Source of the DNA: Dermatophagoides farinae
Taxonomy: Eukaryota; Arthropoda; Arachnida; Sarcoptiformes; Pyroglyphidae
NCBI RefSeq assembly: GCF_024713945.1
Contig: NC_134683.1
Span: 1,230,501-1,294,500 of the forward strand
Direction of reading: 5' to 3'
Length of the DNA: 64,000 nt
Shown: positions 10,180 through 30,304 of the stretch, piece by piece
How positions within the stretch are numbered: the first letter of the stretch is position 1
Layout: every line of letters begins with the position of its first letter
Notes under the pieces: model-generated
What the model was told of the DNA's origin: nothing
What the model saw: only the letters and a program-made list of their open reading frames with translations
Database searches by the model: none
Program-made: the position numbers and the translations under genes

Positions 10180-11845
10180 TCATATATATGAATATTGCCG
10201 ATTCTGCATGATAACATATTTATAGATGAACATTAAAAATTGTGAATAAAGTAATGTATACTGTTTTAGGAATGGAATAAAGAAAAAAAAACATACACAT
10301 GCACACTGATTAATGAATAAATTTCGATTTTTTTTTTTTTTTTTTGATGAAGTTTTTTATTCAAACCTTGACAAATTCTTGCATTGTAATTAGTTCCAAT
10401 TTTGCATATGTAAATCCATATTTATTCTTTGTATGAAATGCTTGGCCATAATTTGAAAGTTTTAGAAGAATTTTAAAATTTTTTCCAATAAATCCAGAAA
10501 TACGAATCAAAAGATTGATAAAACAAATGGATGGCTGTTGAAAATGTTGATTACAAATGACAATTATTAGATGAAAAACAAAGATAACCAATGTTTGTTG
10601 TAGAAAAATCATGATGAGAAAGAATTCGAGAATAAAACCACCACGTTCAGATAGAATATAGATAATTATATAACAATTGACAGGAATATTGACAAATATA
10701 AATGCAGTGAATGCTTCGAAATAGCTCCAGCTTTGTTTGATCATTTGTAAATTATTTGTTTGATAACATTGAAAACGTAGCATTTGTTTACAAATAAACG
10801 GCATGATTAGTATGAATTTTTTTCTACCATTCTGTGATACAATTAATGACCAGCATAGATTTAATAATCGTTGTGTTTGCCACACTTTTATATAGAATAT
10901 GAATAACATGGATAAAGCACAAATGGCCATCAATAAATGTACATGGCCATAAATATAGATGAAAAATTCTACAATTTTCCAATTGATTATCATCAAAATG
11001 ATTTTCATAAATTGAAAAATCGAATCCATCGACAGATTTTGATGATTTATATTCAGAATAAAATCATGGACATGTTTAATAGTGATAAGATTGAAAATTA
11101 ATTGAACACAATCTAGGGATTGTATAAAACAAAAACATTTTTTTTAAACAAAAAAAAAAAAAAAATTGACATATTCAAATTACTCACTAATTGCGATGAA
11201 AAAAATACCGAATGTTTTGGAAATTTTTCTCAAATTATTTCGAACAATCAAATTGGCCATCTGTTCACGATATTTAAATGGTGGATAAAATTGTCGATGG
11301 CCATCGTTTTTAAAAAGTACTGAATATAATTGTGATGCTAAATAATTTTTATAATAAAGATAATGATTACTTGTAGCAATCATTATGATCCAAATGGCTG
11401 CAAATAGATTAATAATTGGATCCAAATGGAATAATGAAATTATATTGGCATTCAATATTGATGAATCGATCGATGAATATTGCTCACTAGCATTAAAGAA
11501 ATAATGATGGAAAAATTTTAAAAATTGTATGACTAAAATCGTATCAATAAAATTAGTTGCCAAACAAATCTGGCAATTAGAATGTATTTCGATCGATGTT
11601 TTCTGATAAATGAAACCATCATTAACATCATGATAATTTAAACGTCTACATTCACGATGACCGATATACATTTCAAAATATCTTCGTAAATATTTCATCA
11701 TACGAATCCAAACTAATGGACCAAGTATAGTCCATATAGCCGAAAATTGTCGTCGAATTGTTGAAAATATTCCGAAACAATATTTGCTCATCCATATTAT
11801 TTGATGATGATTAAACATCGTCAAATCATTGAAATTCATTGACAT
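10180..11845 (-). CDS. Multi-pass membrane protein, gustatory-receptor-like family, member 1 (intact)
   Basis: Three exons read 11188-11845, 10367-11112 and 10180-10260, giving 494 residues. Intron 1 is phase 1 and the last intron is phase 0 (AAG, then GTTTGA). It shares with its relatives in the window the block YGQAFHTKNKYGFTY, the QFYPPFKYR motif and several hydrophobic helices. The short last exon encodes YTLLYSQFLMFIYKYV, matching the terminal exon of every other member. Insect gustatory receptors are about this size, have seven helices and a C-terminal TYxxxxxQF motif after a phase-0 intron, so a chemoreceptor role is a fair inference, not proof. The start is uncertain: three in-frame ATGs fall within 30 codons (11845, 11839, 11821); paralogue alignment favours one of these. 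The 5' end faces the 12.5-kb pseudogene head to head. Confidence 0.72.
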
Positions 11846-11929
11846 TGTCTTAAATGATAATAGAAAAGTGATCTCTCTGACAATCACTACACAATAACTC
11901 ACTTGTTCCAATAATTTTTTTTAAAAAAA

Positions 11930-12499
11930 TTCAAATTATCAACAATCATTTGAAACCATAACAACGTTCAAAAAAAAAGTAGAATAATGACAATTTTATC
12001 ATTTATGAAATAGAATTGAATAAAAAATTTTCGTCATTATTCATCATAAATTTATTTATATATATGGAGAAATCGAATAAAAAAGTGAAATCATTCGATA
12101 TGTTTGCAAGAATTTCATAATATTAAAAACATTTTGCCAACCATTAACTTACTTAAATAAAGTTTTAAATTCAAGCAAATATCATTCATTCATTTTATTG
12201 TCACTTTGTGGTCGATAATTGGTTGGAATTTTCTTTTTTCTTCGAAAAAAAAACCTAAGTTCCAATACAAATATAATCGGAAACGAATGTCATCATCATC
12301 ATCATCATCATCATTCATTCATTCGGCATCAACAACAATCATTCATATATGAAAACAAAAACGGATCAGAGAAAAAAAAAAGAAAAGAAAAAAAAAGAGA
12401 AAAAAGAAAGAAAAGTTTCCAAGAAGAAAAAAACACTTGAAATCTACCACATTCACATTTTATTATTATTAAATCGACTATATTCATTGTTTGACAAAG
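11930..12499. repeat. Upstream module, copy 1 (also at about 13290-13828 and 15545-16089)
   Basis: A segment of about 550 bp between GR-like gene 1 and the truncated gene at 12500. It recurs as direct repeats directly upstream of the genes at 13829 and 16090; shared landmarks include ATTTGAAACCATAACAACG, GAATAATGACAATTTTAT and CATCAACAACAAT. Copies differ by small indels. It was carried along by the tandem duplication that built the cluster and probably holds the promoters of the plus-strand copies. Confidence 0.7.
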
Positions 12500-13058
12500 A
12501 TGGAAACTGTGAAAATAATTGATTTAATCATCAACATGATGTTCATTTATCGTAACATCATTTTATCGATTGTAGATTTATATAATGAATTTGCAGAAAT
12601 TCTTTTCTCATTCCTCAAATGTGATCTAATGAATCATCTGAAAAAATATTTCAATAAAAAATTGACAATAAAAAAAAAATTCAAAATTTACACCATATCT
12701 TTGATTTGATATTTCTGAACTTTCCACTTTTGAAAAATGATTTTTTCTTCTTTAATATAAAATAGAGGTGTGATTCAATGAATAAACGTTAAAATTTAAC
12801 ATAAATAATCAGATTAATAATTTTTATAGCGGAAATAAGTTAGGCATATCAACTACGTAAAATTTACGTAGGTTACCTTTTCCGCAATATCGATAAGGTT
12901 ACCTTTCTAGGGTTAATTACGATGGAAGAATTTGCAATGGTAAGTATTTCAATGAGTTTTATTCTAATCAAATTGATTATTGGTTCTTTTTTCTTTTACA
13001 TTAGTTTATTCTAATTTATTTTCAATTCTTCATGTTTGTCTATAAACATTTTTATTAA
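12500..13058 (+). pseudogene. GR-like family pseudogene with internal deletion
   Basis: Starts with an ATG and an N-terminal block (METVKIIDLIINM and onward to LMNHLKKYF) aligned with the intact gene at 13829, but homology stops at about 12655. It resumes only at 12911 with LITMEEFAM, the end of the penultimate exon, then a GTAAGT donor at 12940 and the last exon at 13005-13058 (FILIYFQFFMFVYKHFY, stop). More than 1 kb of coding sequence is missing. The gap is filled by about 250 bp of unrelated DNA with an imperfect hairpin (12829-12885). It cannot encode a working receptor. Confidence 0.8.
12829..12885. repeat. Imperfect foldback sequence with central 19-nt palindrome
   Basis: The segment begins GCGGAAA and ends TTTCCGC, and its centre, 12853-12871, is CTACGTAAAATTTACGTAG, a palindrome with 9-nt arms around one base. 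It lies in the deletion gap of the pseudogene at 12500-13058. It could be a small MITE-like insertion; no target duplication is obvious. Confidence 0.4.
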
Positions 13059-13099
13059 AAAAAAAAAAAAAAATACACAATACTTGTTCTCAATTCTCA

Positions 13100-13250
13100 T
13101 CAAAAAATTGTTGTCAAATTGTTGTAAATATCCACAAACAATATTTGCTCATACAAATTATATGTTATGAATAAACATTGTCAAATCATCATTGAAATTT
13201 ATTGACATTGTTTTAAATGATAATATTAAAGTGATCACTCTGACATTCAC
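13100..13250 (-). pseudogene. Duplicated 5' fragment of GR-like gene 1
   Basis: The minus strand matches the first exon start of the gene at 10180-11845: MSINFNDDLTMF followed by a stop, then a recognisable stretch (MSKYCFGIFSTI in the parent) now mutated. The match continues upstream through the shared upstream module. The segment 13095-13830 is therefore a copy of about 11750-12500 that includes the first exon end of gene 1 and its head-to-head partner. Confidence 0.65.
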
Positions 13251-13289
13251 TACACAATTACCCACTTGTTTCAATAATTAAAAAAAAAA

Positions 13290-13828
13290 TTCAAATTATC
13301 AACAATTCGATCATTTGAAACCATAACAACGAGCAAAAAAAAAGTAGAATAATGACAATTTTATGATTGAAATTGATCCTAAATCATCATAAATTTATTC
13401 ATATATGGAGAAATCGAACAAAACAGTGTATTTCATTCTATAAATATTCTCAAAAATTTTATAATGCAAAAAACATTTTGCCAACCATTAATAACTCAAA
13501 TAAAGTTTTAAATACAAACAAATATCGATATCATTCATTCATTTTATGGCCACTTTTTTTGGTCGATTATTAGTTGGAATTTTCTTTTTTTCTTAGTTTT
13601 TATTAGTTGGAAAAAAACCCAAGGTCCCATAACAATATAATCGGAAACAAATGTCATCATCGTCATCATTCGTTCATTAATTCGGCATCAACAACAATGG
13701 TTCATATATGAAAACAAAAACGGATTAGAGAAAAGTTTCAAAGAAGAAAAAAAAACATTTGAAATTCTACGCATTTTTCACATTGAATTATTATTAAATC
13801 GATTTATTTATTATTGACAAAGATAAAA
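13290..13828. repeat. Upstream module, copy 2
   Basis: Second direct copy of the module described at 11930-12499, ending at the start codon of the intact plus-strand receptor-like gene. It keeps the same landmarks but has lost part of the poly(A)-rich stretch found at 12365-12420 in copy 1. Confidence 0.65.
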
Positions 13829-15392
13829 ATGGCCAAAATAATTGATCTAATTATCAACATGGTATTCATTTTTCGAAACATTATTTTATCGATTGTAGAT
13901 TTATTTAAAGAAATGACAAAAATTCTTTTTTCGTTACTCAAATTGGATCTAATGAATCATCTGAAAAAATATTTAAAAATGTACGCTGAACAAAGAATTT
14001 GTAAACAAAAATATGATTATAATCCATACGGCATGGAATACAAATTCAATTTGGTGACCGCATCAACGAAATTTTCATATAATCAACATCAACAATGTCG
14101 TATTTGTCGTGTTATTGGATTGATCGATTTGATTATCATTGTCTATATAGTTAAAAATTTCTATGAACATTTCCTTATCAAAAGAAATGTATTTGATAAG
14201 CATTTGAATGCCAATGTAATTGGCCTATTCATGCAATCCGATCCAATCGTTTGTTTATTTTGCTATTTATTAGCCATTCAAATTATAATATATCTTCACT
14301 GGCTTTATTATTCAAATCCAAATGCATCAGCGTTATATGATATAATATTCAAACAACGATCCGATAATTTTCATCCACCATATCATTATCGATCTAAAAT
14401 GGCATGTACATTTGTACGAGATATGGCACGAATAATTATCATTTCATTTTCAATTTTTATCATCATAATAAGTAAGTACAAATTGAATCAATTGATAAAT
14501 TCAATTCATTTATCGATTCTCTCTCTCTCTCCCTCTATTCTTTATTTAGATTTTATTACATTAATGATAGATCTATCAACATTAATATTCGTGTTTGAAA
14601 ATTGGAATTATTTTTTCCCATTCAATACAAACATTTTCGAATGTTTTAATCATTCAATAACATTAGTAATGATGTTTTTCTATTGGAAAGTGATAGAAAT
14701 TACAGTCATTTTCTATGCACATTGTTGCATAATAATGGCTACATGTGGATCAATATCAGCATTTGTATTTCGAATCAATGTATGGCAAACAAAACAATTG
14801 TTGTCGTCAATCCATGAACATCAAATATTCATTCAACGACAATTGATACAATTTCAACATTTTAATACAAAAAATTTACGTTTCCTTCACTCAACTCGTA
14901 TATATTTCGAAGCGTTTTTCATATTTTTATTAATTAATATTCCACTCAATTGTTATTTGATCATATTAATTATGAATGGCAACGAAAATAAATTTATCAT
15001 TTTCTTTTTCATTGCACTTGCTGCACAACAAATTATATGCATTTTCGGTATCCATCTATTTGCTGCCATGTGCAATAAAGAATTTCATTCGTCTTCTAAT
15101 CGATTTATAAATTTATTGGTTCGATCACATCGATATTGGCATCGGCGACGATTATCAACTTTGTTGAAATTATCACATTATGGTCAAGCATATCATACGA
15201 AAAAAAAATATGGTTTCACATATGGCAAATTACAATTAATTACGATGGAAGAATTTGCAATGGTATGTATTTTAGTTTAGCTTTATTCAAATACATTCTG
15301 ACCAATGGTTATTTGTCCATTTTCTTTTTCATTAGTTTACTCTAATTTATTCTCAATTCTTCATGTTTATTTATGAACATTTTTATCAATAA
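13829..15392 (+). CDS. Multi-pass membrane protein, gustatory-receptor-like family, member 2 (intact)
   Basis: Exons 13829-14471, 14550-15262 and 15336-15392 encode 470 residues. The ATG at 13829 follows a conserved GACAAAGAT context also seen in the copies at 12500 and 16090. Hydrophobic helices alternate with short loops; family motifs are NPYGMEYKFNLVTAS, CRICRVIGLI, FHPPYHYRSKMA, RINVWQTKQLL and HYGQAYHTKKKYGFTYGK. The last intron is phase 0 (ATG, then GTATGT) and the last exon encodes FTLIYSQFFMFIYEHFYQ. Intron 1 (78 bp) has no stop and stays in frame, so an unspliced form would also be open. It is the best-preserved plus-strand member of the cluster. Ligand and membrane topology are unknown. 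Confidence 0.75.
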
Positions 15393-15544
15393 ATAGACTA
15401 ATGGCACGTATATATACTTGTTCTCAAGTCTCAACAATTTCTGCATCAATCGATTAGAAAAAAAATGTCAATTATTTCTGTGGTCGAAATTCTTTATTTC
15501 TACACATAGGCATACAAACTTCAATTGTTTATTGGTAAAAAAAA

Positions 15545-16089
15545 AATCTAAATTATCAGCAATTCGATCATTTGAAACCATAACAACGTGCAAAAAAAAG
15601 TTGAATAATGACAATTTTATCATTTATGGAATAGAATTGAATAAAAAATTTTCGTCATTAATTATCATATATAAATTTATTCATATATGCGACGAGTAAT
15701 TTTTCAAAAAAAAATTATTCCAAATAAAATAGTGGATTCTTTCGATATATTTTCAAGAATTTTCTCATGCAAAAATTATTTTGTCGGCCATTAATTTAAA
15801 TAACATTAATAAAGTTTTAAATGCAAAAGAATATCGCTATCATTGATTCATTTTATTGCAACTTTGTTTTTGATCGATTATTGGTTGGTATTTTCTTTTT
15901 TCTTCAACCCAAGTTTTTAAAAAAAAAATTCCCATAACAATATCATCATTCATTCATTCAGCATCAACAACAATGGTTCATATATGAAAAAAAACGGATA
16001 AGAGAAAAATTTTCAAGAAGAAAAACAAAACTTTAATCATAATCATATTGCATTATTATTAAATCGACTATATTCATTGTTTGACAAAG
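15545..16089. repeat. Upstream module, copy 3
   Basis: Third direct copy of the upstream module, directly before the pseudogene at 16090. It starts in the 3' flank of the gene at 13829-15392 and is the most diverged of the three, with small deletions around 15680-15710 and 15940. Confidence 0.6.
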
Positions 16090-17690
16090 ATGAAAATTAT
16101 GATCATAATCGATTTAATTATCAACATGGTATTCATTTCTCGTAACATCATTTTATCGATTATAGATGTATTTGAAGAATTGGCAGAAATTATTTTTTCA
16201 TTCCTCAAATGTGGTCGAATGAATTATCTGAAAAAATATTTCAATATGTAAAGTGAACAAAGAATTTGTAAACGAAAATATGATTATAATCCATATGGCA
16301 TGGAATACAAATTCAATTTGGTGACCGCATCAACGAAATTGTCAAATAATCAACATCAACAATGTCGCATTTGTCGTGTTATTGGATTGATCTATTTGAT
16401 TATCATTGTCTTTTTGGTTAAAAATTTCTATGAACATTTTCTGATCAAAAGAAATGTATTTGATATGCATTTGAATGCCGATGTAATTGGCCTATTCATG
16501 CAATCCGATCCAATTGTTTGTTTATTTTGCTATTTATTAAACATACAAACTTTGTTGTATCATCACTTGCTTTATTATTCAAATCCAAATGCATCAGCGT
16601 TATATGATATAATATTCAAACAACGATCCGATAATTTTCATCCACCGTATTGTTATCGATCTAAAATGGCATGTACATTTATACGAGATATGGCAAGAAT
16701 AATTCTAAATTTATTAATAATTTTTATTTTCACAATGAGTAAGTACTAATTGAGTCTATTGATAGATTCAATTCATTTATCGATTCTTTCTCTCTCTCTC
16801 TATTTCTCTCTACAAACATTTAGATTTGATTATATTAATGGTGAATATATCAACATTAATATTCGTATTTGAAAATTGGAATTATTTTTTCCCATTCAAT
16901 ACAAACATTTTCGAATGTTTTAATCATTCAATAAAATTAGTAATGATGTTATTCTATTGGAAAGTGTTCGAAATTCCATGCATTTTATATGGACATTGTT
17001 GTTTATTAATGGCTATATGTGGATCAATATTAGCATTTGTATTTCGAATCAATGTATGGCAAACGAAACAATTGTTGTCGTCAATCAATCATCGTAAAAA
17101 TGAACAAAAAATGACAAAGATGATATTCATTCAACGACAATTGATACGATTTCAACGTTTTAATACAAAAAATTTACGTTCAATGCAATCATATCGTATA
17201 TATTTAGATGCATTTGTCATATTTTTATTCATTCATATTCCATATAATTGTTATTTGGTCATATTGATTATGAATGGCAACAAGAGTTCCATTATCCTTT
17301 TCATTATCACCATATTTGCTACACAACAAATTCTGTGCATTCTATGTATCCATCTTTATATTGCCATCTGTAATAAAGAATTTCATTTTTCTTCCAATCG
17401 TTTTATGAATTTATTGGTTCGATCACATCGATTCTGGCATCGGCGACGATTATCAACGTTGTTGAAATTGTCACATTATGGTCAAGCATATCATACGAAA
17501 AAAAATATGGTTTCACATATGGCAAATTACAATTAATTACGATGGAAGAATTTGCAATGGTATGTATTTCATTGAGTTTTATTCCAATTTGATCTAATCA
17601 AATTGATTATTGATTATTTTTCTTTTTCATTAGTTTATTCTATTTTATTCTCAATTCTTCATGTTTGTCTATGAACAATTTTATCAATAA
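16090..17690 (+). pseudogene. GR-like family member 3, recent pseudogene (premature stop and frameshift)
   Basis: The exon layout is as in member 2: 16090-16738, 16824-17559, 17634-17690. Codon 54 is a TAA stop (16249-16251) where paralogues have TAC for Tyr in the motif KMYAEQRI. Near the end, a run of 8 As (about 17498-17505) replaces the 9 As of member 2, shifting the frame inside YHTKKKYGFTY. All splice sites and the last exon (FILFYSQFFMFVYEQFYQ) are kept, so the loss is recent. The A-run change alone could be a sequencing slip; the TAA is less easily explained that way. Translation could restart at Met71 (16300) but would lack the conserved N-terminus. Confidence 0.78.
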
Positions 17691-18447
17691 ATAAACTACA
17701 CGTATATATACTTGTTCTCAAGCCTTAACAATGTTTGTCTGTATCAATCGATTGGAAAAAAATGTCAATTCCTTATTCCTACACATAGACACTCAAACTC
17801 CAACTCACCTACTTACACATTGAAACACATTTAATGCACCAAAAACCAATTTATACACACAGTACACACACACACACAATCCAAAAATTTGTGATCTCCA
17901 TATTATATCCTTAACTTGTGAATTTTTAATTTTATTTTCATTGTTACATTATTATTATGATATATATCAGAATTATCCGTTGCTGTTTCACTCAATATTC
18001 ACTCAATAATAATTATCGTGCTTTATTATTCTTTTTAGATTAGCTTATATATAGTAAATTTCAGAATTATAATTTGTTTTGTTTTATCAATCGTATGTTC
18101 AAAGGTTTACTGATGTTCCGAGTTTTACCCAGTTGTTTTTTCTCAAAAAAAAAAAAAAAAAAAATTTCCAGAATCATAAAAATAAGAATTGACGATCATT
18201 ATGAAAAAAATTTCAAAAAAAAAACCAAAAAACAAATAAACAAACGTAATGCCCAATTCATTGTGCATTTGTGTTTGTTTGTCAATTTTAAAAATTTACA
18301 ATTTTACAAATTTCAGACACTAGATGGAAGCCAGTAATGATAATAAACATTTATTTCAAATTTCAAATTACTAATTTATTATATTGTATTGAATTCTATC
18401 GATAAACAAGTTATTATTACAAGTTTTGAAATATATTTGATTGTGAT
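17691..18447. other. Intergenic region with no recognised gene
   Basis: AT-rich DNA between the 3' ends of two convergent receptor-like pseudogenes. It holds a short (CA)n tract at about 17855-17878 and a poly(A) run at 18145-18163. The one open frame (18074-18337) is Lys- and Phe-rich low complexity with no recognisable domain. Confidence 0.5.
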
Positions 18448-19770
18448 TCAAATATATTGAAAGAAGAACATTATAAATTGACAATAAAGTAATAGAAACT
18501 GTTGGAGAGAAATAAAAATCAATTTAAAATAAACAAAAATTGTATCGGTTTTTTATTTCTTACCATAAGGAATTCACGCATTGATATTAGCTGCAATTTT
18601 CCATATGTAAAACCATATTTATTCTCCGTATGATATGCGTGGCCATAATTGGACAGTTTCAATAACAATGATAAATTCTTCACATGTGATTGTCTACAGG
18701 ATTCTCGAGCCAATAGATTCAAGAATCGTGTAGATGATTCTTAAAACTATTGTTACAAATGGCAATAATTCGACAAAAATTTTCGTATTTGACAATGAAC
18801 CTTTGACATTTTATAATGATTTAAAAAAAATAGAACCAATTTGAAATTTGAATTGATTGTGTTATATGGACTTGTTGGAATTTTCTATGATTCTGAACTG
18901 GTCGTGTTAGGTTGGATTTGTATTAATTTGGATTTTGAATTCTGAATTGATTGTGTTAGGTTGGATTTGTTATTTTATGGATCTTAAATTGATTAATAAT
19001 TGTTTTGTTTGCCAAACATTTATCACTTGTTATCATCATAAACAACAATAAACTGGTCGTGTTAGGTTGGAACAATGTATTTACTGGATTTTGAATTCAT
19101 ATAATCTGAATTGATTGTGTTACATTGCCACATGGCGTGATTTAGAGAAACGAAAATTGGCCTGGATTTTGTCCAAATTTTCCATGATAATTTTCAACGA
19201 TAATAGCTCCATTGATTGTGATTAACTATGGAATTGTTATTTTCTAGATTAAAATTGAACTTTTCGTGTTAGGTTGATGATCATGAATTTTGAATTCTGA
19301 ATGATTTTTAGGTTGGATTGTTATTTTCTGGATTTTAAATTTTGAATTCTGCAGGTTGGATATTGATTGTTGTTAGAATTGATTGTGTTAGTTTGGACTT
19401 GTTATTTTCTCGATTCTGAACTGGTCGTGTTAGGTTGGATTTGGATTGATTGTGTTAGGTTTGTACGATATTTTCTAAATGATTGTTGTTTATCTATTGA
19501 ATCAATTCTGCATCAAGAATGGATACAGTTATATTGATAATAAAGCCATGATGAATGATTGTGTCAATCTGGATTTGATGAATTTTACGATTCTGAACTA
19601 ATTGTGCAATTGCAAATAGATTAACAGTTGGATTTGTTATTTTCTGAATTCTGAATTATTGTGTTAAAAACATTTGATATTAGGATGAATAATGCATATT
19701 TTGAAAATTGATTGATTAAACAAACATTATGACAAATGGAAGAATTTTGATTTTGATTTGTTTGTTTAAT
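18448..19770 (-). pseudogene. Heavily eroded GR-like pseudogene, part of a segmental duplication
   Basis: The 3' end is clear: the last exon 18448-18498 (FLLLYCQFIMFFFQYI) and penultimate exon end 18564-18722 (SNYGHAYHTENKYGFTYGK) closely match member 4 at 22591-24079. Upstream a frameshift appears at about 18740, and only islands of similarity remain: 18990-19010 to 23160-23190 (TTGTTTTGTTTGCCAAACAT), 19130-19150 to 23308-23325, 19500-19550 to 23610-23650 and 19690-19740 to 23790-23850. Between the islands lie about ten copies of a GTGTTAGGTTGGATTTG-like motif. Further flank (20040-20310) matches 24150-24425, so the whole region is a decayed duplicate of the member 4 locus. Confidence 0.7.
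18895..19480. repeat. Dispersed GTGTTAGGTTGGATTTG-type repeats inside the pseudogene
   Basis: About ten variants of a unit reading roughly GATTGTGTTAGGTTGGATTT, often followed by GTTATTTTCTGGATTCTGAA, occur at about 18906, 18953, 19058, 19118, 19266, 19310, 19350, 19383, 19425 and 19448. They break up the receptor homology. Each contains a TTAGGTTGG core like that in the TTAGG-rich dumpy intron at 39275-39550. Confidence 0.55.
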
Positions 19771-20039
19771 TATTACTTATTTTTCCTATACCGATTCCAC
19801 TACAAACAATTGTTCACAACTTTAATAGATATTTGAATAATCGAAGTATATCGTTTTCTTTTCAGGATTACCATAATATTCAAATGTAATCGTAAAAATG
19901 GATTTTCATTTTATTATAAAATGGAAATTTCGCGGCACACAAAAGTTTTTCGAAAACAGTGGTTGAGAATTGATTGTTACTGGAATGAAAAAAAAAAAAA
20001 AACAAAAATTACAAATGAAAATAAAAAAAAATTTTTACT

Positions 20040-20289
20040 TAATCTTAAATACTGGTTTGGAAAAAAAAATTCCACTAAAAGGCGAAAAAAATAGCCAGTT
20101 TTCTTCACAGAATTATTGACGCAAAACAGAAAAAAAATTTATGTACACAAGAAATTAATCAAGAATCATTGGAATTTTTGTTGCTAAAAACATAAAAAAT
20201 AATCATGTGTAAAATGTACATTCGAAATATTCATCCGGACCGATGAAAAAATTTATTCTTTTCCCGGACTATGAATTTGACACCGCATG

Positions 20290-20316
<27 letters not shown>
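20040..20316. repeat. Left flank of the duplicated locus (matches about 24150-24425)
   Basis: This stretch aligns with the sequence upstream of member 4, including AATAGCCAGTTTTCTTCACAG, GAATTATTGACGCAAAAC and GATGAAAAAATTTATTCTTTTC, and ends in a (CA)n tract at 20290-20316. In the paralogous locus the CA tract is short and runs straight on to the sequence found here at 22092. It marks the left edge of the LINE insertion. Confidence 0.75.
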
Positions 20317-20320
<4 letters not shown>

Positions 20321-22034
20321 ATTATGTGATCAAATAAATGGGATAGTAAATATCGTTTTTGATTGGGCTATACAAAATAAAATTCCTGTGAATAAAGAAA
20401 AAACCAATGCTCTTCTTTTATCGAAAAAGAACAAACCAACACCAAACAATCTTATAATCAAAACGGTCGAATCAACTAAAATCCTTGGTGTAACTTTTAC
20501 GAGAGACCTTAAATTCAATTTACATGTTAAGAAAAAAATTTTGGAAGCTTACAAATATTTACAAATCCTCAAAACATATGTATCGCACAAATTTGGTTTA
20601 TCAAGTGATAAAAGAATCACTCTATATAATTGTTTTGTCAAGCCTAGCCTTTTAAATGCTTCAGAAATATGGTCAAATAATATTAATTATCAATCAAAAA
20701 GAAGCTTGGTCACACTTGATAATGCATTATTAAGAAATGCAATAAAACAGTAATGCTTTCAAATCTACACCGATCGATTGTCTGCTGGCCATTTACAATC
20801 TCAAAACTATGTACACGTACTCCACTGATTAATTGTTTTATACTTTTAAATTTTGGAGAAGATTAATTCAAAAAGAAGCTTGCACTTTAATGCATTATTA
20901 AAAATGCAATTAATGCTTTCAAATCTACACCGATCGATTGTCTTCATCTACTAACACGTACTCCTCTGATTAATGATATACTAATTTTGAGAAGAAATTC
21001 AGCTGCACTTAAAATACGCAAAATTCCTGTTGGACCAGTAGATGCACTGAACAATAACATAATAATCATGGGCAATTGGAACATCGAACACGACATTACT
21101 ATTGACATAAATTATCAATTCAATGATCATTTCATTCTTTGTCACTCTTCTATTAATATTGTACAAGGAAATCACACATTCGACGTTTACACAAAATACT
21201 GGTTTCATACTGGCTTAGTTGATGCAATAGACAATAGCATTCGGAAATCTTTAAAATTGCTGCTCAACCACCACTATTTACATCAATCAAAGATTATTGT
21301 ATACACACCAATAAAATCTGGTCTCTACAAGATTCAGACAATTTCATCCAAAAATATTATGAAAATTGTTCAATTTTTGAACTTATCATATTCAACAATT
21401 TATGTAAAACATATTGAACGATACACATACACAAATCAAGTTGACGTTTCACGAATTAAAATCAGCTTTAAGTACTATGCCAAATCAAAAATCAACGAAA
21501 TCATTAAATCACATCTGAATGAATCTATGGTTAACTTATCAAATAATTGTAACAAAGAAGAAACGACAACTCTAATAAATCATAAAAATTTCAATATAAA
21601 TCTAGTTAACCAAGAAATTACATCCTTATGCACAGGCCACGGCCCAACAAGGGCGTACCTGTTTAATAAACGAAAAATTGGTTTATCAGCAAATTGCCCT
21701 GTGTGCAATTCTCCACAAAATTATAGCCACATCACCACATGTCCGATGTTTGATGACATTATGAACATCTTTGAAATTAACGGCAACGAACATTTGACCT
21801 CCACAATTGGTAAATTGTTAAATAACAACAAACTATCTGATTTCTCCCATCTCGTCCACCGACGCTTAAGGGATATGAATGAACGCCTTAAATTCATCAT
21901 TTAAAGCTCTATTCTTAATTTTATCTCTTATCTACATGATTATTATCATTGTATGACTTTTATTCTCGTTTTTTTTATTGTATTTACATTTTTCATTATT
22001 TGATAATTTTAAATAAAGCTAGGAGTCATGCTCC

Positions 22035-22069
<35 letters not shown>
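20317..22069 (+). mobile_element. 5'-truncated non-LTR retrotransposon (LINE, R1/Jockey-like) with poly(A) tail
   Basis: The element starts inside the reverse transcriptase just after the catalytic box (DWAIQNKIPVNKEKT, then STKILGVTF, then LYNCFVKPSLLNASEIW, the thumb region) and reads open to about 20752. After an internal duplication the frame continues at about 20987-21901. The C-terminus has TGHGPTRAYLF and a Cys-rich CPVCNSP...HITTCPMFDD motif, typical of R1/LOA/Jockey-type elements. The 3' end has AATAAA (22012-22017), a small GGAG/CTCC stem and about 33 As (22037-22069). CA tracts on both sides fit a target-site duplication that cannot be measured exactly. It is dead: truncated, frame-broken and lacking the polymerase core and endonuclease. 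Confidence 0.85.
20694..20995 (+). repeat. Internal 174-bp imperfect tandem duplication in the LINE
   Basis: The block beginning TCAAAAAGAAGCTT at 20694 recurs about 174 bp later at 20868, and both copies contain GCTTTCAAATCTACACCGAT. The copies differ by several short deletions (for example, GGTCACACTTGATAATG becomes GCACTTTAATG). The duplication ends the upstream open frame at 20753 and restarts it at 20987. Confidence 0.65.
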
Positions 22070-22083
<14 letters not shown>

Positions 22084-22235
22084 CACATACACAGCAAAAA
22101 TAGTTCCAGTTTTTTTCGATTAGAATTATTTAACGAAGAGAAAGCTGAATTGGTCGTAATCGATTGGTTTATACTTGAGAGATATGAATTTCTTTCACAG
22201 ATAAATGTGTTATTATTAAGATTTGACAAGAGGTC
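22070..22235. repeat. Right flank of the duplicated locus (matches about 24415-24565)
   Basis: Begins with the second CA tract (22070-22087), then AGTTCCAGTTTTTTTCGATTA, which aligns with AGTTCTAGTTTTTTTTTCGA at 24432, and keeps matching through ATGAATTTCTTTCACAG. With the left flank it shows that the LINE landed within one CA tract. Confidence 0.7.
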
Positions 22236-22590
22236 TTGGAAGTATTGATTCAATAGTTATATAATATTCAATAAATAGGCTTTTAGAATGATATAAATGA
22301 TTTTTAATAATAATGAATAACTGGTAAACTATTACACCATTGATCGCACTAATTAAATATGCTTTTATAGTGACATTAAACAGTAAAACAATCTTTCTTT
22401 CAACAATTCAAACAGTTAAGTTTGATTAAAATTTCATAAAATTCCTTGAACAATTCTCGGATCAATTAGATAATTCGATTGACACCTTGGATTGGATATC
22501 AAATAGGAAACGACGCAGGATATTTCATTTTGTGTGAACAAATTACAGGTTTTCAGTAGAAAATGAGAATTGGAAAATTTTGATTTTAAC
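22236..22590. other. Short intergenic region with no recognised gene
   Basis: AT-rich sequence between the right flank of the insertion and the 3' end of member 4. Nothing else in the window matches it clearly and no ORF stands out. Confidence 0.45.
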
Positions 22591-24079
22591 TTAAATGTAT
22601 TCAAAGAAGAACATTACAAATTGACAATACAGTAATAGAAACTGTTGGAGAGAAATAAAAATCAATTGAAATAGACAAAAATTGCATCTGTTTTTGTATC
22701 TTACCATAACAAATTCTCGCATCGATATGAGCTGCAATTTTCCATATGTAAAGCCATATTTATTCTCAGTATGATATGCATGGCCATAATTAGACAGTTT
22801 CAATAACAATGATAAATTCTTCATACGGGATTGTCCACTGGATTCACGAGCCAATAGATTCAAGAATCGTGTAGATGATTCATGAAAATTTTGATTACAA
22901 ATGGCAAACAATAAATGAACACCAAATATGCACACTATTTGTTGACAAGCAAAAGTGGATAAAACCAAAGAATAGACCAAATCTGAACGTCCAGACATTA
23001 TGAATAAGATGATGTAACAATTGATTGAAACATTAACGAATATAAATACAGTGACCGTTTCACAATAAACATTTCCCCATTGTATTAATTTCAGATTATA
23101 TGTATTGAAATGTTGAAAACGTTTCAATCTTTGAAAAATCGATACACGGCTTAGATTGACTAATAATTGTTTTGTTTGCCAAACATTTATCAGAAAGATC
23201 ATCAGATATGGCAATAAACAAAGAGCAAATAGTGCACAACATTGGGCATAAATAACATGGAAAAATTCATATAATTTCCAAAAGAATGTCATTAACATTA
23301 GCCACATAGCGTGATTTAGAGAAACCAAAATATTTCGGTTGAATATAGCGAAAAAATAGTTCAAATTTTCAAGGATAAATTTTACTAATAATAGTTCCAT
23401 TGATATGATAATCAAAACTGAAATGATGAAACAAATCAAATTTATTAAGATTACAAAACATTTTGAATGACTCACTAGTTATAAACATAAAAAGATTGAC
23501 CATTTTGATCGCCATCATGGCAATATCTTTGGCTACTTTACCTGCCATTCTAGTGCGATAACGATATGGTGGATGAAATTGTTGTCTATCTTGTTGAAAT
23601 AATACAGCATTGAGAATGGAAACAGTTTGATTCCGGTAATAAAGCCGATGAAGATAATATTGGATCTGTATGACAAACATGATGATAAACAGAACAAGAA
23701 TACGACGACCTACTTGTGTGATTGCAAATAGATTAGCAGTAAGATAATTATTAAAAGTATTGCTATCGTCTTGAAACATTTGAACAATAGGATGGATAAT
23801 GCATATTAATAAAATTAATTCGATGAAACTAACAACTTGACAAATGGAACATTTCTCGTGATGATGTTGACCAATCCATGATAAACGAAATTGTTTACTA
23901 ATCTGGTCACAATCGAATTGTTTACATTGTCTTTGTGGATCATTGTACATGTCGAAATATCTTTTCATATAATTCAATCCATCTAATCGTAGTAATGGAC
24001 TAATCATTCTTACTATACCAATGGAAATGATTCGAATGGATAGGAAATTTTTCCGAAAAATTTCAATCATTTTATTCAT
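22591..24079 (-). CDS. Multi-pass membrane protein, gustatory-receptor-like family, member 4 (intact)
   Basis: Exons 23476-24079, 22705-23417 and 22591-22641 encode 455 residues. It is diverged from members 1-3 but has the same design: CSICQVVSFIELILL after the first hydrophilic loop, QFHPPYRYRTRMA before the first intron, FLINVWQTKQLL, and SNYGHAYHTENKYGFTYGK near the end. The last intron is phase 0 (ATG, then GTAAGA) and the last exon encodes FLLLYCQFVMFFFEYI. The middle exon is 713 bp, the same as in member 2. No stop or frameshift is seen. A decayed duplicate lies at 18448-19770. A longer open frame upstream (to 24424) has no support from paralogues, so the ATG at 24079 is preferred. Confidence 0.75.
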
Positions 24080-25009: not shown

Positions 25010-25128
25010 TAATGATAAAAACTTTTTTTTTGGATTGATTAATATTCAATATATATAAATGGGTGATATGATTTGATTCGATTTAATTTCATTTCATTTC
25101 ATTTTTTTTTTTTTTTTTGTTAAAACAA
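25010..25128 (+). promoter_or_regulatory. Putative core promoter of P450 gene 1
   Basis: A TATATAAA box at 25052-25059 is followed by GGGTGATATGATTTGATTCG; the ATG is at 25129. The same block precedes the second P450 at 27690-27789, including AAGGTAATTGAAGTGAT upstream. Conservation between tandem copies may only reflect recent duplication, so the promoter call is moderate. Confidence 0.5.
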
Positions 25129-26992
25129 ATGACGATGGTCACGACGACGACGACAACAACAACAACAACAACGGCGACAAATGGAACGAATGTTGAAAAA
25201 TTCGTTCATCAAATAATACTTCTATTTATACGTTATGGAATCATATCCATTATTGTTTCATTACTTTTGCTACGTTCAATAAGGATAATTCAACGATGGT
25301 TACGATCAAGATCAATGATTTGTAAATTTTCGGGCATAAATGTTCCATTTTGGAAAATTCCAATTGGAAACATTGACATGTTATTCATTGGAAGTTGGAC
25401 AACAGAAACAATTGTTGATGGTAAAAAAAAAAAATTTTTTGCTTTATAAATTAATGACAAATTCACTTTTCATTTATTAAAAAAACCATCTAGATTATTT
25501 TAAAGTGATGACGGGAATGTCCAAACTTTTTGGTGAAACATCTCATGTTTGGCTTTCATTGTTTCCAACTATGATTATTAGTCATGCCGATGTTGCTGAA
25601 GTAAGTATAGATTGTGGATTTTTGTGTGGAAATAGTATTCGAAATTTTTTTTTTGCATTTAGAAAATATTATCCAGCACTGATACATTTTTAGATAAAGA
25701 TTATTTTTATGAAATGGTTAAACCATGGCTGAATGAAGGACTGTTGACCAGTGCATCGAATAAATGGCGTTCACGACGAAAATTATTGACACCAACATTT
25801 CATTTTAATATTTTGGAACAATTCTTACCCATCATGAATGAACAGGCACAAATTCTTTCTCGTATAATCAATGATCGTCAACTGAAAGCAGGTGGTAATG
25901 GTTATCTAGATATTGTGCCACTAATAACAAATGCAACGTTGGATGTTATCTCGGAAACTGCAATGGGTGTGAAAATTGGTTCACAACTCGATAAAAATCG
26001 TGATTATGTGGATGCAGTTACAAGGTTAGTGATCATGGGTGAATTTTTATTCCTGTCATAATTGAATACGTCAAATTTTCAGAGTTACAGCTACAGCTTT
26101 GAAACGAATGTTATTGCCATGGTTTCAAAATAATTTCATTTATTTTAATTTTTTGGCCGAAGGACGTAAACATCGTCGTGATATTAATCTAGTTCGTGAA
26201 TTCACAATGAATGTTATTAAAAAACGTAAAAACGAAATTGTCAACCAAAAGAATCTTGATTTGAATGCGAATGAAAATGGTCGTCGTTTAGCATTTATGG
26301 ATCTATTGATTGAACAGCATTTAAATGATCCAGATAAATTTACTGAATCGGATATTCGTGAAGAAGTGGATACATTCATGTTTGAAGGTCATGATACGAC
26401 GGCAATGTCATTGATATGGACATTACATTTACTCGGTAATCATCCTGATATTCAGGATCGTATACATGAAGAAATCGACGAAATACGGCAACAATCTGAT
26501 GATTATGATCAAACACAGAATTGGTCTCAAAATCAATTAAGACAGATGAAATTTCTGGAGGCCTGTATCAAAGAATCGTTACGAATTTATCCATCGGTAC
26601 CGGTAATATTACGTTATACACATCAAGATACGGAAATAGAACCCGGTCGTATCATACCAAAAGGAACGTCCGTCGCTCTCGTACTTTATATGATACAAAG
26701 GGATCCAAAATATTTTCAACAACCAGAACGCTACATACCGGGTCGTTTTATCGAAGATTCTGAACATTATTGTGGCCGTATAAATCCATTTGCTTATGTA
26801 CCATTTTCAGCCGGGCCACGTAATTGTATTGGACAGAAATTTGCTCTACAAGAAGAGAAAATCATGTTGGCCACTTTATTGTCTCGATATCGTGTTGAAT
26901 CTGGTGATAATCGTGGTAATGTCGATGTAAAAGCGGCATTAATTTTAAGGCCAAAATCATCAGTCAATATTCGTTTCATACAACGTATATAA
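25129..26992 (+). CDS. Cytochrome P450, CYP4-type, tandem copy 1
   Basis: Four exons (25129-25420, 25494-25600, 25663-26024, 26083-26992) encode 556 residues. It is an ER-anchored monooxygenase: a hydrophobic segment (IILLFIRYGIISIIVSLLLL) follows a poly-Thr start. Visible P450 signatures are WRSRRKLLTPTFHF (helix C), EVDTFMFEGHDTT (helix I, the CYP4 family motif, with Glu355 that in many CYP4 enzymes links covalently to heme), KESLR (ExxR, 418-421), PERYIPGRF and FSAGPRNCIG (heme ligand Cys502). Length is usual for microsomal P450s. CYP4 enzymes typically omega-hydroxylate fatty acids or act on xenobiotics; the substrate here is unknown. All introns are short GT-AG introns and the next gene has the same structure. 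Confidence 0.93.
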
Positions 26993-27689
26993 TTTTTAAT
27001 CAAACCAAAATAATAAAAAAAATAAATCCTTTTATTCCACCAACTTCTGTTTATCTTTGTTGTAATAGTTTAGTTTAGGAAGTCCGGATCTATGACGTGT
27101 GTTGATAATAAATAAATCAAACCGCACAAAAAAAAACAATTTTGCATGTCAATGTCAATCGTATATATCCGAATAAAATACAATTTTGACTTTTATTATT
27201 GTAAATCAGCAAAATTATATCTGTTCGATCAACAATTTTAAATTTAAAAAAAAATTATCCAAAGTTTCAATAAATGGTTACAATTCAAATCAAAATTTTC
27301 ATTAAAAATGAATAAAACAAAACAGAAGCTGTTGATCATCATGATTGACTCCCCTTATATTGGCATTTTCAGGCTTGACCAATAAGCTTGTTATTCAATT
27401 TTAAATCAAATTTTTAATATATCTCAACCAATTCATTATCAGGCGTTGCTGATTAACCAAAATAAAATTTTGACGTAATTGGTAATTGGTAATCTTACAT
27501 TTTAACGTCATCATCATCGTGATTTGCATCAAAATTTTATTATCGATTCAACACACACAAAAATATATATGACATGAAAAACAAATCAAATAACATTTCC
27601 TTATAAGGTATATCTATATCAGTATGTATCATCAGAACAACAACAAAAAAACACACACAAACATTTGAATATAATGTTTACAAGGTAAT
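26993..27689. other. Intergenic region between the two P450 genes
   Basis: The first part (to about 27180) is the 3' flank, duplicated after the second gene at 29620-29735 (shared TTTATTCCACCAACTT and AAGTCCGGATCTATGA). The stretch 27095-27170 matches 24780-24850. AATAAA-type signals lie at about 27019 and 27109. No gene is seen. Confidence 0.55.
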
Positions 27690-27789
27690 TGAAGTGATGA
27701 TAAAACTTTTTTTTCTGATTGATTAATATTTAATATATAAATGGGTGATATGATTTGATTCGATTTCATTTTTTTTCCGGGTTAAACCA
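27690..27789 (+). promoter_or_regulatory. Putative core promoter of P450 gene 2
   Basis: A TATATAAA box at 27734-27741, 49 bp before the ATG, is followed by TGGGTGATATGATTTGATTC, as in gene 1. The spacing to the ATG is shorter than in gene 1 because a poly(T) tract has contracted. Confidence 0.5.
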
Positions 27790-29619
27790 ATGATGATAGC
27801 CATGACGACAAATGGAACGAATATTGAAACATTCGCTCATCAGATAATTCTTCTAATCATACGTTATGGAATCATATCCATTATTGTTTCATCATTTTTG
27901 CTACGTTCAATGAGAATTATGCAGAGATGGTTACGATCAAGATCGATGATTTGTAAATTTCCTGGCATAAATGTTCCATTTTGGAAAATTCCAATTGGAA
28001 ATATTGACATGTTATTCATTGGAAGTTGGACAACAGAAACAATTATTGATAGTAAAAAAAAATTTTTTTAATTTATGACAAATTAACTTTTCATTTATTA
28101 AAAAATCATCTAGATTATTTTAAATTGATGATCGGAATGTCCAAAATTTTTGGTAAAACATCTCATTATTGGCTTTCATTCTTTCCAACTATGGTTATTA
28201 GTCATGCTGATGTTGCTGAAGTAAGTATATATTGTGAATTTTTGTGTGGAAATAGTAATCGAAAATTTTTGTTTTCGCATTTAGAAAATATTATCCAGCA
28301 CTAATACATTTTTAGATAAAGATAATTTTTATGAAATGCTTAAACCAATGCTGAAAGAAGGACTGGTGACCAGTTCATCGGATAAATGGCGTTCACGACG
28401 AAAATTATTGACACCAACATTTCATTTTAATATTTTGGAACAATTCTTACCCATCATGAATGAACAGGCTCAAATTCTTTCTCGTATAATCAATGATCGT
28501 CAGCTGAAAGCAGGTGAAAATAGTTATCTAGATATTGTGCCACTAATAACGAATGCAACATTGGATATTATCTCGGAAACCGCAATGGGTGTGAAAATTG
28601 GTTCACAACTCGATAAAAATCGTGATTATGTGGATGCAGTTACAAGGTTAGGGATCATGATTGGACTTTTTTCCCGTCATAATTAAATTCGTCCAATTTT
28701 CAGAGTTATGGCTACAGTTGTGAAACGAATATTATTGCCATGGCTTCAAAATAATTTCATTTTTTTCAATTTTTTTGCCGAAGGACGTAAACATCGACGT
28801 GATATTAATCTAGCTCGTGAATTTACATTGAATGTTATTAAAGAACGTAAAAACGAAATTGTCAAACAAAAGAATCTTGATTTGAATGCGAATGAAAATG
28901 GTCGTCGTTTAGCATTCATGGATCTATTGATCGAGCAACATTTGAAAGATCCGAAACACTTTACCGAATCGGATATTCGTGAAGAAGTGGATACATTCAT
29001 GGTTGCAGGTCATGACACGACTGCCATGTCATTGATATGGACATTACATTTGATAGGCAATCATCCGGACATTCAGTATCGTATACATAAAGAAATTGAC
29101 GAAATAAGGCAACAATCTGATGATGATGATGACCAAATAACACAGAATTGGTCTAAAAATCAATTAAGACAGATGAAATTTCTTGAGGCCTGTATCAAAG
29201 AATCGTTACGAATTTATCCATCGGTACCGGTAATATTACGTTATACACATCAAGATACGGAAATAGAACCCGGTCGTATCATACCAAAAGGAACGTCCGT
29301 CGCTCTCGTACTTTATATGATTCAAAGGGATCCAAAATATTTCCAACAACCAGAACGCTACATACCGGGTCGTTTTATCGAAGATTCTGAACATTATTGT
29401 GGCCGCATGAATCCATTTGCTTTTGTACCATTTTCAGCCGGGCCACGTAATTGTATTGGACAGAAATTCGCATTACAAGAGGAAAAAATAATGCTTGCCA
29501 CTTTATTGTCTCGATATCGTGTTGAATCCGGTGATTATCTTGGTAATGTTCATAAAAAAGCGATAATAATTTTAAAACCAAAATCATCAGTCAATATTCG
29601 TTTCATACGACGTACATAA
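27790..29619 (+). CDS. Cytochrome P450, CYP4-type, tandem copy 2
   Basis: Four exons (27790-28051, 28114-28220, 28285-28646, 28704-29619) encode 548 residues. Exons 2 and 3 have exactly the lengths of the first copy. Signatures: WRSRRKLLTPTFHF, EVDTFMVAGHDTT (helix I), KESLR, PERYIPGRF and FSAGPRNCIG (Cys494). The helix I residue before GHDTT is Ala345, where copy 1 has the CYP4-typical Glu, so this copy probably cannot form the covalent heme ester. The N-terminal poly-Thr run of copy 1 is absent. The exon 3 donor is GTTAGG, weaker than GTTAGT in copy 1. From about 29165 to 29330 the DNA is nearly identical to copy 1, unlike the rest. Confidence 0.93.
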
Positions 29620-29845: not shown

Positions 29846-30304
29846 ATGGGGATTTTGAAAATCATTGATTTAATTATCAACATGGTATTCATTTCTCGTG
29901 ACGCCATTTTATCGGTTATAGATGTATTTAAAGAATTGACAAAAATTCTTTTTTCTTTACTCAAATTTGATCTAATGAATCATCTGAAAAAATATTTCAA
30001 AATGTACGCTGAACAAAGAATTTGTAAACAAAAATATGATTATAATCCATATGGCATGGAATACAAATTCAATTTGGTGACCGCATCAACAAAATTGTCA
30101 TATAATCAACATCAACAATGTCGCATTTGTCTTGTTATTGGATTGATCTATTTGATTATTATTGTCTTTTTGGTTAAAAATTTCTATAAACATTTTCTGA
30201 TCAAAAGAAAAATAAACAGTAGTTGGTGGAAATTAAGACAATTTCACCAACTACTGTTTATTTTTATTCAATTTATATGTTTTGGTCCAGATACCAATTG
30301 GTAA
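29846..30304 (+). pseudogene. 5' fragment of a GR-like gene
   Basis: From about 29770 the sequence matches the 5' region of the gene at 16090, including upstream DNA (AAACTTTAATCATAATCATA). The ATG at 29846 opens MGILKIIDLIINMVF and continues with NPYGMEYKFNLVTAS to HFLIKRK, where homology stops at about 30210. The remaining 31 codons of the open frame come from a hairpin (30211-30262) and unrelated DNA. It lacks exons 2 and 3 and cannot make a receptor. It lies 3' of the second P450, outside the main cluster. Confidence 0.78.
30211..30262. repeat. Perfect 18-bp inverted repeat with 16-nt spacer
   Basis: The left arm is AATAAACAGTAGTTGGTG (30211-30228) and the right arm is its exact reverse complement (30245-30262). 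The spacer itself can pair (GAAATT with AATTTC), giving a nearly continuous stem. It begins at the base where receptor homology ends. Confidence 0.85.

Follow-up and report, generated by a model that had tools for sequence, protein, structure and literature searches.

The window analysed here is a stretch of 64,000 nucleotides from the genome of the mite Dermatophagoides farinae (C7:1230501-1294500, C7 being contig NC_134683.1), and it holds a cluster of receptor-like genes that a first-pass annotation had proposed as a lineage-specific branch of the gustatory receptor (GR) superfamily. Three copies are intact, and spliced they encode 494, 470 and 455 amino acids, as had been predicted for them. 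The first lies on the minus strand at 10180..11845 (exons 11188-11845, 10367-11112 and 10180-10260); its first intron is in phase 1 and 75 bp long, and its last intron, which has the weak donor GTTTGA, is in phase 0 and 106 bp long, leading to a last exon at 10180..10260, also on the minus strand, that reads YTLLYSQFLMFIYKYVIMQNRQYSYI up to the stop. The second, on the plus strand at 13829..15392 (exons 13829-14471, 14550-15262 and 15336-15392), has a phase-1 first intron of 78 bp, which is in frame, and a phase-0 last intron of 73 bp. The third, on the minus strand at 22591..24079 (exons 23476-24079, 22705-23417 and 22591-22641), has a phase-1 first intron of 58 bp and a phase-0 last intron of 63 bp, the latter in frame.

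Six copies had been counted, and all six last exons are indeed present where they were placed, each behind an AG acceptor, in phase 0 and 17-27 codons long including the stop; they read YTLLYSQFLMFIYK.., FILIYFQFFMFVYK.., FTLIYSQFFMFIYE.., FILFYSQFFMFVYE.., FLLLYCQFIMFFFQ.. and FLLLYCQFVMFFFE.., and the peptide quoted as their example, FILIYSQFFMFVYE, occurs in none of them, being a mixture of two. Only three of the six copies are intact, however, and the other three have decayed. The remnant at 12500..13058 (plus strand) has been gutted, keeping a 5' piece (12500-12652) and the last exon (13005-13058) with the middle missing; the pseudogene at 16090..17690 (plus strand) carries an in-frame stop at ~53 codons and a frameshift near its 3' end, and its last exon (17634-17690) remains readable; and 18448..~18760 (minus strand, upper limit judged by eye, last exon at 18448-18498) is a 3' fragment of a gene close to the third intact one. 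To these we add a seventh copy, a 5' fragment at 29846..30220 (plus strand) that is close to the second intact gene and retains only the N-terminal ~125 codons. The segment 21582-25021 of the window, which includes the third receptor gene, has a 97.8% (~98%) copy ~320 kb away on the same contig (C7:929500-933000), which points to recent turnover, and the decayed copies together with this segmental copy fit the clustered birth and death that had been suggested.

The genome (62.4 Mb, 22 contigs) contains three matches above the cut-off of the Pfam model Blo-t-5 (best 184.5 bits), a family typical of astigmatic mites. Protein searches of this genome with four members of the receptor family returned 30, 32, 34 and 27 places, which we merged by eye into 39 loci on C3, C4, C6, C7 and C8, referred to below as the window clade. 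The 3' end was modelled in 28 of the 39; the other 11 comprise two 5' fragments, the three decayed window copies, whose last exons were seen, five near-identical copies or pieces, and C6:2163k. All 28 modelled members end in the same short block. In 27 of them the body of the gene ends at a phase-0 GT donor and a last exon of 16-29 residues follows 54-129 bp further on, and in the remaining one, the paralogue C7:2104k, the intron is exactly absent, so that FLK runs directly into CIILYMKSLSLVYKIF. An acceptor followed in phase 0 by hhhhY-x-[QKE] (h, hydrophobic) is found in 27/27 intron-bearing members, as compared with 0.04 expected in all when the same downstream DNA is resampled with a dinucleotide-Markov model; because the search for such an exon guided the modelling of the members, this resampling bears on chance and not on completeness. 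In the last exon, the proportions of nonsynonymous and synonymous differences (pN and pS), pooled from 16 paralogue pairs, are 0.19 and 0.45, and the ratio of the corresponding rates (dN/dS) in the body is 0.23-0.55 (16 pairs, dS exceeding 1 in six of them), so that, to judge from these substitution patterns, the exon is coding and under constraint. The natural intron loss in C7:2104k and the constraint on the exon thus amount to strong genomic evidence that the last exon is spliced on. The first intron is in phase 1 in 13 of the 14 window-clade genes where it was modelled, the fourteenth being uncertain, and is 49-78 bp long in the best models, with one uncertain model of 275 bp. For the clade profile we retained C4_3468k, whose first intron is uncertain, and excluded the 99-residue C4_6136k; C6_3561k is without a full model. 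Elsewhere on the same contig, C7:1124000-1142500 (L021, L022) holds eight window-clade genes or gene pieces in an array, apparently the result of four having been duplicated in tandem with almost no divergence.

The sequence of the terminal block differs from what had been put forward as its signature. If the invariant Gly in the YG pair is numbered 1, G1 and Y22 are present in 28/28 modelled members, position 24 holds Lys in 15, Gln in 12 and Glu in one, and position 25 is Phe in eight. The Q-F pair occurs in 4/28, all four on C7, and the YxQF pattern is thus a trait of some C7 genes and not of the family, the invariant residue of the exon being the Tyr. The equation of YxQF with the TYhhhhhQF motif of insect receptors, from which the relationship to GRs had been argued, was likewise rejected: the Tyr stands two residues before the Gln and not six, distant paralogues carry Lys at the Gln position, and QF is not in any demonstrable way ancestral. 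What survives of the proposal is the assignment to a GR branch, which can be placed on other grounds, namely profile-profile homology and the column occupied by the intron.

Both of these grounds involve a second cryptic receptor family with a similar intron plan, which we met through the gene L014, which has a comparable block at its C terminus. A genome search with L014 gave 69 exon-level matches, or ~40 loci by eye, on C2, C3, C4, C6, C7, C8 and C9. The phase-0 intron before transmembrane segment 7 (TM7) is present in four of nine of these sister genes (L014, L062, L066 and L067), whereas L063, L064, L068 and L069 read through its position and L065 was not resolved; the TM7 pieces that were read have Gly or Ala at position 24. 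Comparison of the window clade (26 proteins) with the sister clade (eight proteins, B_C4_1211k having been excluded) by hhalign gave a score of 84, a probability of 96.7 and an expectation value (E) of 3.4e-10 over 260 columns, as against scores of 16-18 when either side was reversed, and on this profile evidence the two families are homologous.

The link to canonical GRs runs through the mite's own members of that family. A genome-wide search with the Pfam model 7tm_7 (E <=10) yielded seven places, two of them above the cut-off. One of the two, L030 (C6:145k), scores 51.8 bits with 7tm_7 (E 1e-13) and 27.4 bits with 7tm_6 when spliced, matches the solved Drosophila Gr64a channel in the PDB at E 2.7e-6, and has three phase-0 introns, as read from its sequence; three more GRs (L072, L074 and L075) were found through it. 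Against a canonical GR profile composed of these four mite GRs and Drosophila Gr64a, the window clade reaches 44.2 (60 block shuffles averaged 14.7, with a standard deviation of 1.8 and a maximum of 19.2), the sister clade 50.3 (shuffle maximum 26.3), and both clades jointly 55.9, with a probability of 91.7 over 324 columns (shuffle maximum 22.7), while reversed profiles reach 12.5-25.3. Against L030 alone the scores are 32.1 for the window clade (100 shuffles, maximum 21.1) and 44.0 for the sister clade (maximum 31.8). The homology to canonical GRs spans TM1 to the TM6-TM7 block.

The same alignments, which are blind to introns, bear on the position of the phase-0 intron. In local mode the sister sequences GPKYGPILSIFGAITNRIVLQ and MVIIYIGFLIF, on either side of the intron, lie ungapped on GPTIGFSCLDLFVITNASISN and TIAAVASYFLIVADF of L030, and in global mode the window-clade sequences KYGFTYAKLELITMQEFVK and YTLLYSQFLMFIYK lie ungapped on the same two segments; since these hhalign alignments are gap-free across the block, the phase-0 introns share one column. 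In the common register, G-F..L.[LV]IT...... falls without a gap on G-F..L..[IL]T......, both running up to the intron. The local window-clade alignment ends before the TM7 block, and the local joint alignment sets LITM on VITN, which is the same register. L072, L074 and L075 have a phase-0 intron in the same column as L030. We estimate the chance of such a coincidence at the order of 1%, given two phase-0 introns of L030 in ~200 aligned columns. According to the available sections of PMC9998090, a phase-0 intron immediately upstream of the TM7 exon is ancestral to GRs, and Drosophila Grl36a and Grl43a have retained it. Window-clade genes have only this one 3' phase-0 intron before TM7; we did not treat the possession of several as defining, because the accepted GRs Gr36 and Gr59c/d also keep only one (PMC9998090, same sections).

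Taken together, we consider it very probable that these genes are homologous to the GR superfamily, and likely, if with some more reserve, that the ~39 window-clade and ~40 sister loci form a highly diverged branch of arthropod GRs, that is, of seven-transmembrane ion channels (7TMIC), whose products make chemosensory channels. The chemosensory function is probable and is held with less confidence than the homology; the branch is probably a fast-evolving one of tetrameric ligand-gated channels. Each protein would then have an internal N terminus and an S0-S7 channel fold, in which the YGxTYGKLxLIT block would constitute S7a, the cytoplasmic anchor, and the last exon would encode the pore helix S7b. 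Four subunits would assemble into a ligand-gated channel in sensory neurons of the legs, palps and mouthparts, and the repertoire would be retuned to local chemistry as genes are duplicated in tandem and lost.

An alternative which retains the GR fold, and which we regard as unlikely without being negligible, is that the genes are not chemoreceptors but serve an internal role in gut, germline or development, such as some Drosophila gustatory receptor-like proteins (Grls) may have. It draws on the residues of the pore helix. In the ungapped, intron-fixed register, position 24 corresponds to T436 and position 31 to Q443 of Bombyx Gr9 (BmGr9), in which the pore has a ring of hydroxyl groups formed by T436, Q443 moves into it when the channel opens and F444 is the gate, as described in the accessible part of PMC11100771. 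Position 31 is Lys in 17 of the 28 modelled members, Arg in one, Val in four, Glu in two, Asn in two, Thr in one and Ser in one, so that Lys or Arg occupies the gating-Gln position in 18/28, and a basic residue is found at both position 24 and position 31 in 15/28. Loss of TYhhhhhQF together with lysines at pore positions could mean that channel function has been lost, and the nine Drosophila Grls, in the portion of PMC9998090 at hand, are taxonomically restricted and mostly without a recognisable TM7 motif. Against an internal role stand the number of loci (~80), the tandem arrangement of many of them, the pseudogenes and the recent segmental copy, which together resemble a sensory repertoire; the dN/dS of the bodies indicates proteins still in use, in whatever role.

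One could also speculate that the GR branch has a lysine-lined pore, in which case its channels could be anion-selective, or silent subunits needing a Gln-type partner; this seems doubtful to us, and, if true, it would mean that the insect-type receptor superfamily could include inhibitory channels for taste or odour. The choice of register matters here. In the automatic one, the Q-F of the first-pass annotation overlies the T-Y of TYhhhhhQF; it is unproven, in that a three-residue shift, with a gap at the exon start, would set Y22 on the Tyr of GRs. Should the automatic register hold, the pore would be basic in many of these channels. The canonical mite GRs are themselves altered at these sites, their TM7 motifs being SYFLIVADF, QNFLLIIDF, QNFLLIVDF or TYFSVILES, with Ser, Gln or Thr at position 24 and Asp or Glu at position 31 instead of the gating Gln. 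Two of them have Gln-Asn in place of Thr-Tyr.

More distant is the proposal of a mite-specific seven-helix family unrelated to GRs, whose short last exon and intron would be convergent or coincidental. It is here that the observations weighing against a GR assignment have to be considered together. None of the 39 window-clade loci is listed in the 7tm_7 search, where the sister gene L014 appears weakly (E 0.077); 15 window-clade proteins and pieces contain nothing that passes the curated cut-off for 7tm_7 or 7tm_6; and a Pfam scan of four sister proteins or halves gave no match. L014 was tried as a direct 7tm_7 member and rejected, a truncated piece scoring 20.7 bits and the nearly whole protein giving no match. 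By sequence the window clade finds nothing useful in Pfam or the PDB, and PDB searches with either clade's profile found no GR. Against Gr64a alone hhalign stays at background (14.9-16.4; shuffle means 11.8-15.2, maxima 16.3-19.6), and the single canonical GRs L072, L074 and L075 score weakly (13-32), so that the link rests on the mite's own canonical GRs. TYhhhhhQF occurs in 0/28 modelled members and, as noted above, the QF resemblance is spurious; we do not treat this motif as defining, because the canonical TM7 motif varies, with variants described in the available sections of PMC9998090, and because the canonical mite GRs are altered too. In both clades a phase-1 intron interrupts many members in or near TM3 (8/8 best-scoring splice models of the sister loci examined, two with unlikely acceptors), and the introns of the two clades need not occupy one column.

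The hydrophobic profile and the predicted structures belong to the same balance. The many hydrophobic helices claimed initially hold at the level of the family mean, where a crude hydropathy average displays seven regions after an N-terminal one, the fourth of the seven being a double peak and the last the terminal exon; single proteins vary, a fixed cut-off giving 3-9 regions (the three intact window genes have 7, 7 and 8), and this spread counts against the assignment. AlphaFold gave a first model with a predicted local distance difference test score (pLDDT) of 44.3, from nine window-only rows of which the first retained both introns, and a second, for the C-terminal half, with 49.4, from five window-only rows with one intron retained; Foldseek searches with these low-pLDDT models found no GR or OR (odorant receptor), all at E >=2. 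Because the alignments lack depth, we regard this structure test as void, speaking neither for nor against, although we list it among the adverse points and, for an unrelated family, among the favourable ones. The Pfam-weak GR candidates L031, L017 and L015 are at background against the window clade, as are L031 and L017 against the sister clade (hhalign); these nulls are not counter-evidence, because the canonical GR profile itself does not pick up L031 or L017 and gives L015 a score of only 24. What makes an unrelated family improbable is that the clades score 44-56 with the canonical GR profile, as against shuffle maxima of 19-26 and at most 25 for reversed profiles, and that they have in common with four canonical GRs both a phase-0 intron in the same column and the G-F..L..[IL]T register.

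An expansion of G-protein-coupled receptors (GPCRs), rhodopsin-type or other, as mite chemoreceptors would share the seven hydrophobic regions, tandem arrays and fast evolution, and is nevertheless scarcely credible, as no 7tm_1 match occurs in the 15 proteins and pieces when the same genome yields 151, and as pieces of four mite 7tm_1 genes, used as a specificity control, score at background (11-20) with all profiles (open frames at the matches, L076 and L079 being partial and L078, of 1209 residues, represented by its last 600, possibly without the domain).

The neighbourhood of the receptor genes contains several other features. Two tandem cytochrome P450-like genes, recognised by eye, lie at 25087-29619 of the window; the P450 genes adjoining the segment of the third receptor gene are likewise copied (L029, ~89-93%), and a further P450 copy adjoins a receptor 5' fragment at C7:922-926k. 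Remains of an open frame resembling a non-LTR (long terminal repeat) retroelement, again by eye, lie between receptor fragments at 20247-21904 and may have helped receptor copying. A very long coding region of epidermal growth factor (EGF) repeats occupies 34350-55708 on the minus strand, and is dumpy-like in its looks.

These results suggest that the mite possesses a large set of insect-type taste receptors too changed for standard searches to recognise, and hence that this mite group may have more chemical sensors than have been counted. In the portions consulted of the respective sources, four GR-like proteins are given for D. pteronyssinus by KEGG (PMC12105342), one GR for a Tyrophagus transcriptome (PMC6065420) and one "gustatory receptor-like protein" among 13 chemoreception candidates for Sarcoptes (PMC4930577); if the ~80 loci are GRs, these low astigmatic counts of one to four may be detection failures. 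We found no prior description of this receptor family in the accessible parts of the open-licence literature. Should the assignment hold, the chemical senses of medically and veterinarily important mites become open to study, and the pore substitutions provide a natural test of the requirements that a GR channel places on its TM7 residues.

Among known systems, the closest likeness is to arthropod GRs (7tm_7; Drosophila Gr64a, Bombyx Gr9), with which the mite family shares length, seven hydrophobic regions, tandem birth and death, a large TM6-TM7 block with G-F..L..[IL]T, the phase-0 intron before the TM7 exon and profile homology. It differs from them in lying below Pfam detection, in having [K/Q]-x-hhhhh-[mostly K] in place of TYhhhhhQF, where an invariant Tyr precedes the K/Q by two residues, in keeping a single 3' phase-0 intron, and in the extra phase-1 intron in or near TM3 of many members. 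Insect ORs (7tm_6) belong to the same superfamily and have a phase-0 intron before TM7, but no 7tm_6 match was obtained in the 15 mite proteins and pieces. ORs are reported absent from mites in the available text of PMC6275457, which also cites 689 GRs in Tetranychus urticae, likewise a large lineage-specific expansion in an acariform mite; the present species is apparently astigmatic. The Drosophila Grls are likewise cryptic relatives of GRs, of which Grl36a and Grl43a have this phase-0 intron, too, ahead of their TM7 exon (PMC9998090, in the sections cited above), but they are few and were found by structure, whereas the mite set comprises ~80 loci and was found by introns and profiles.

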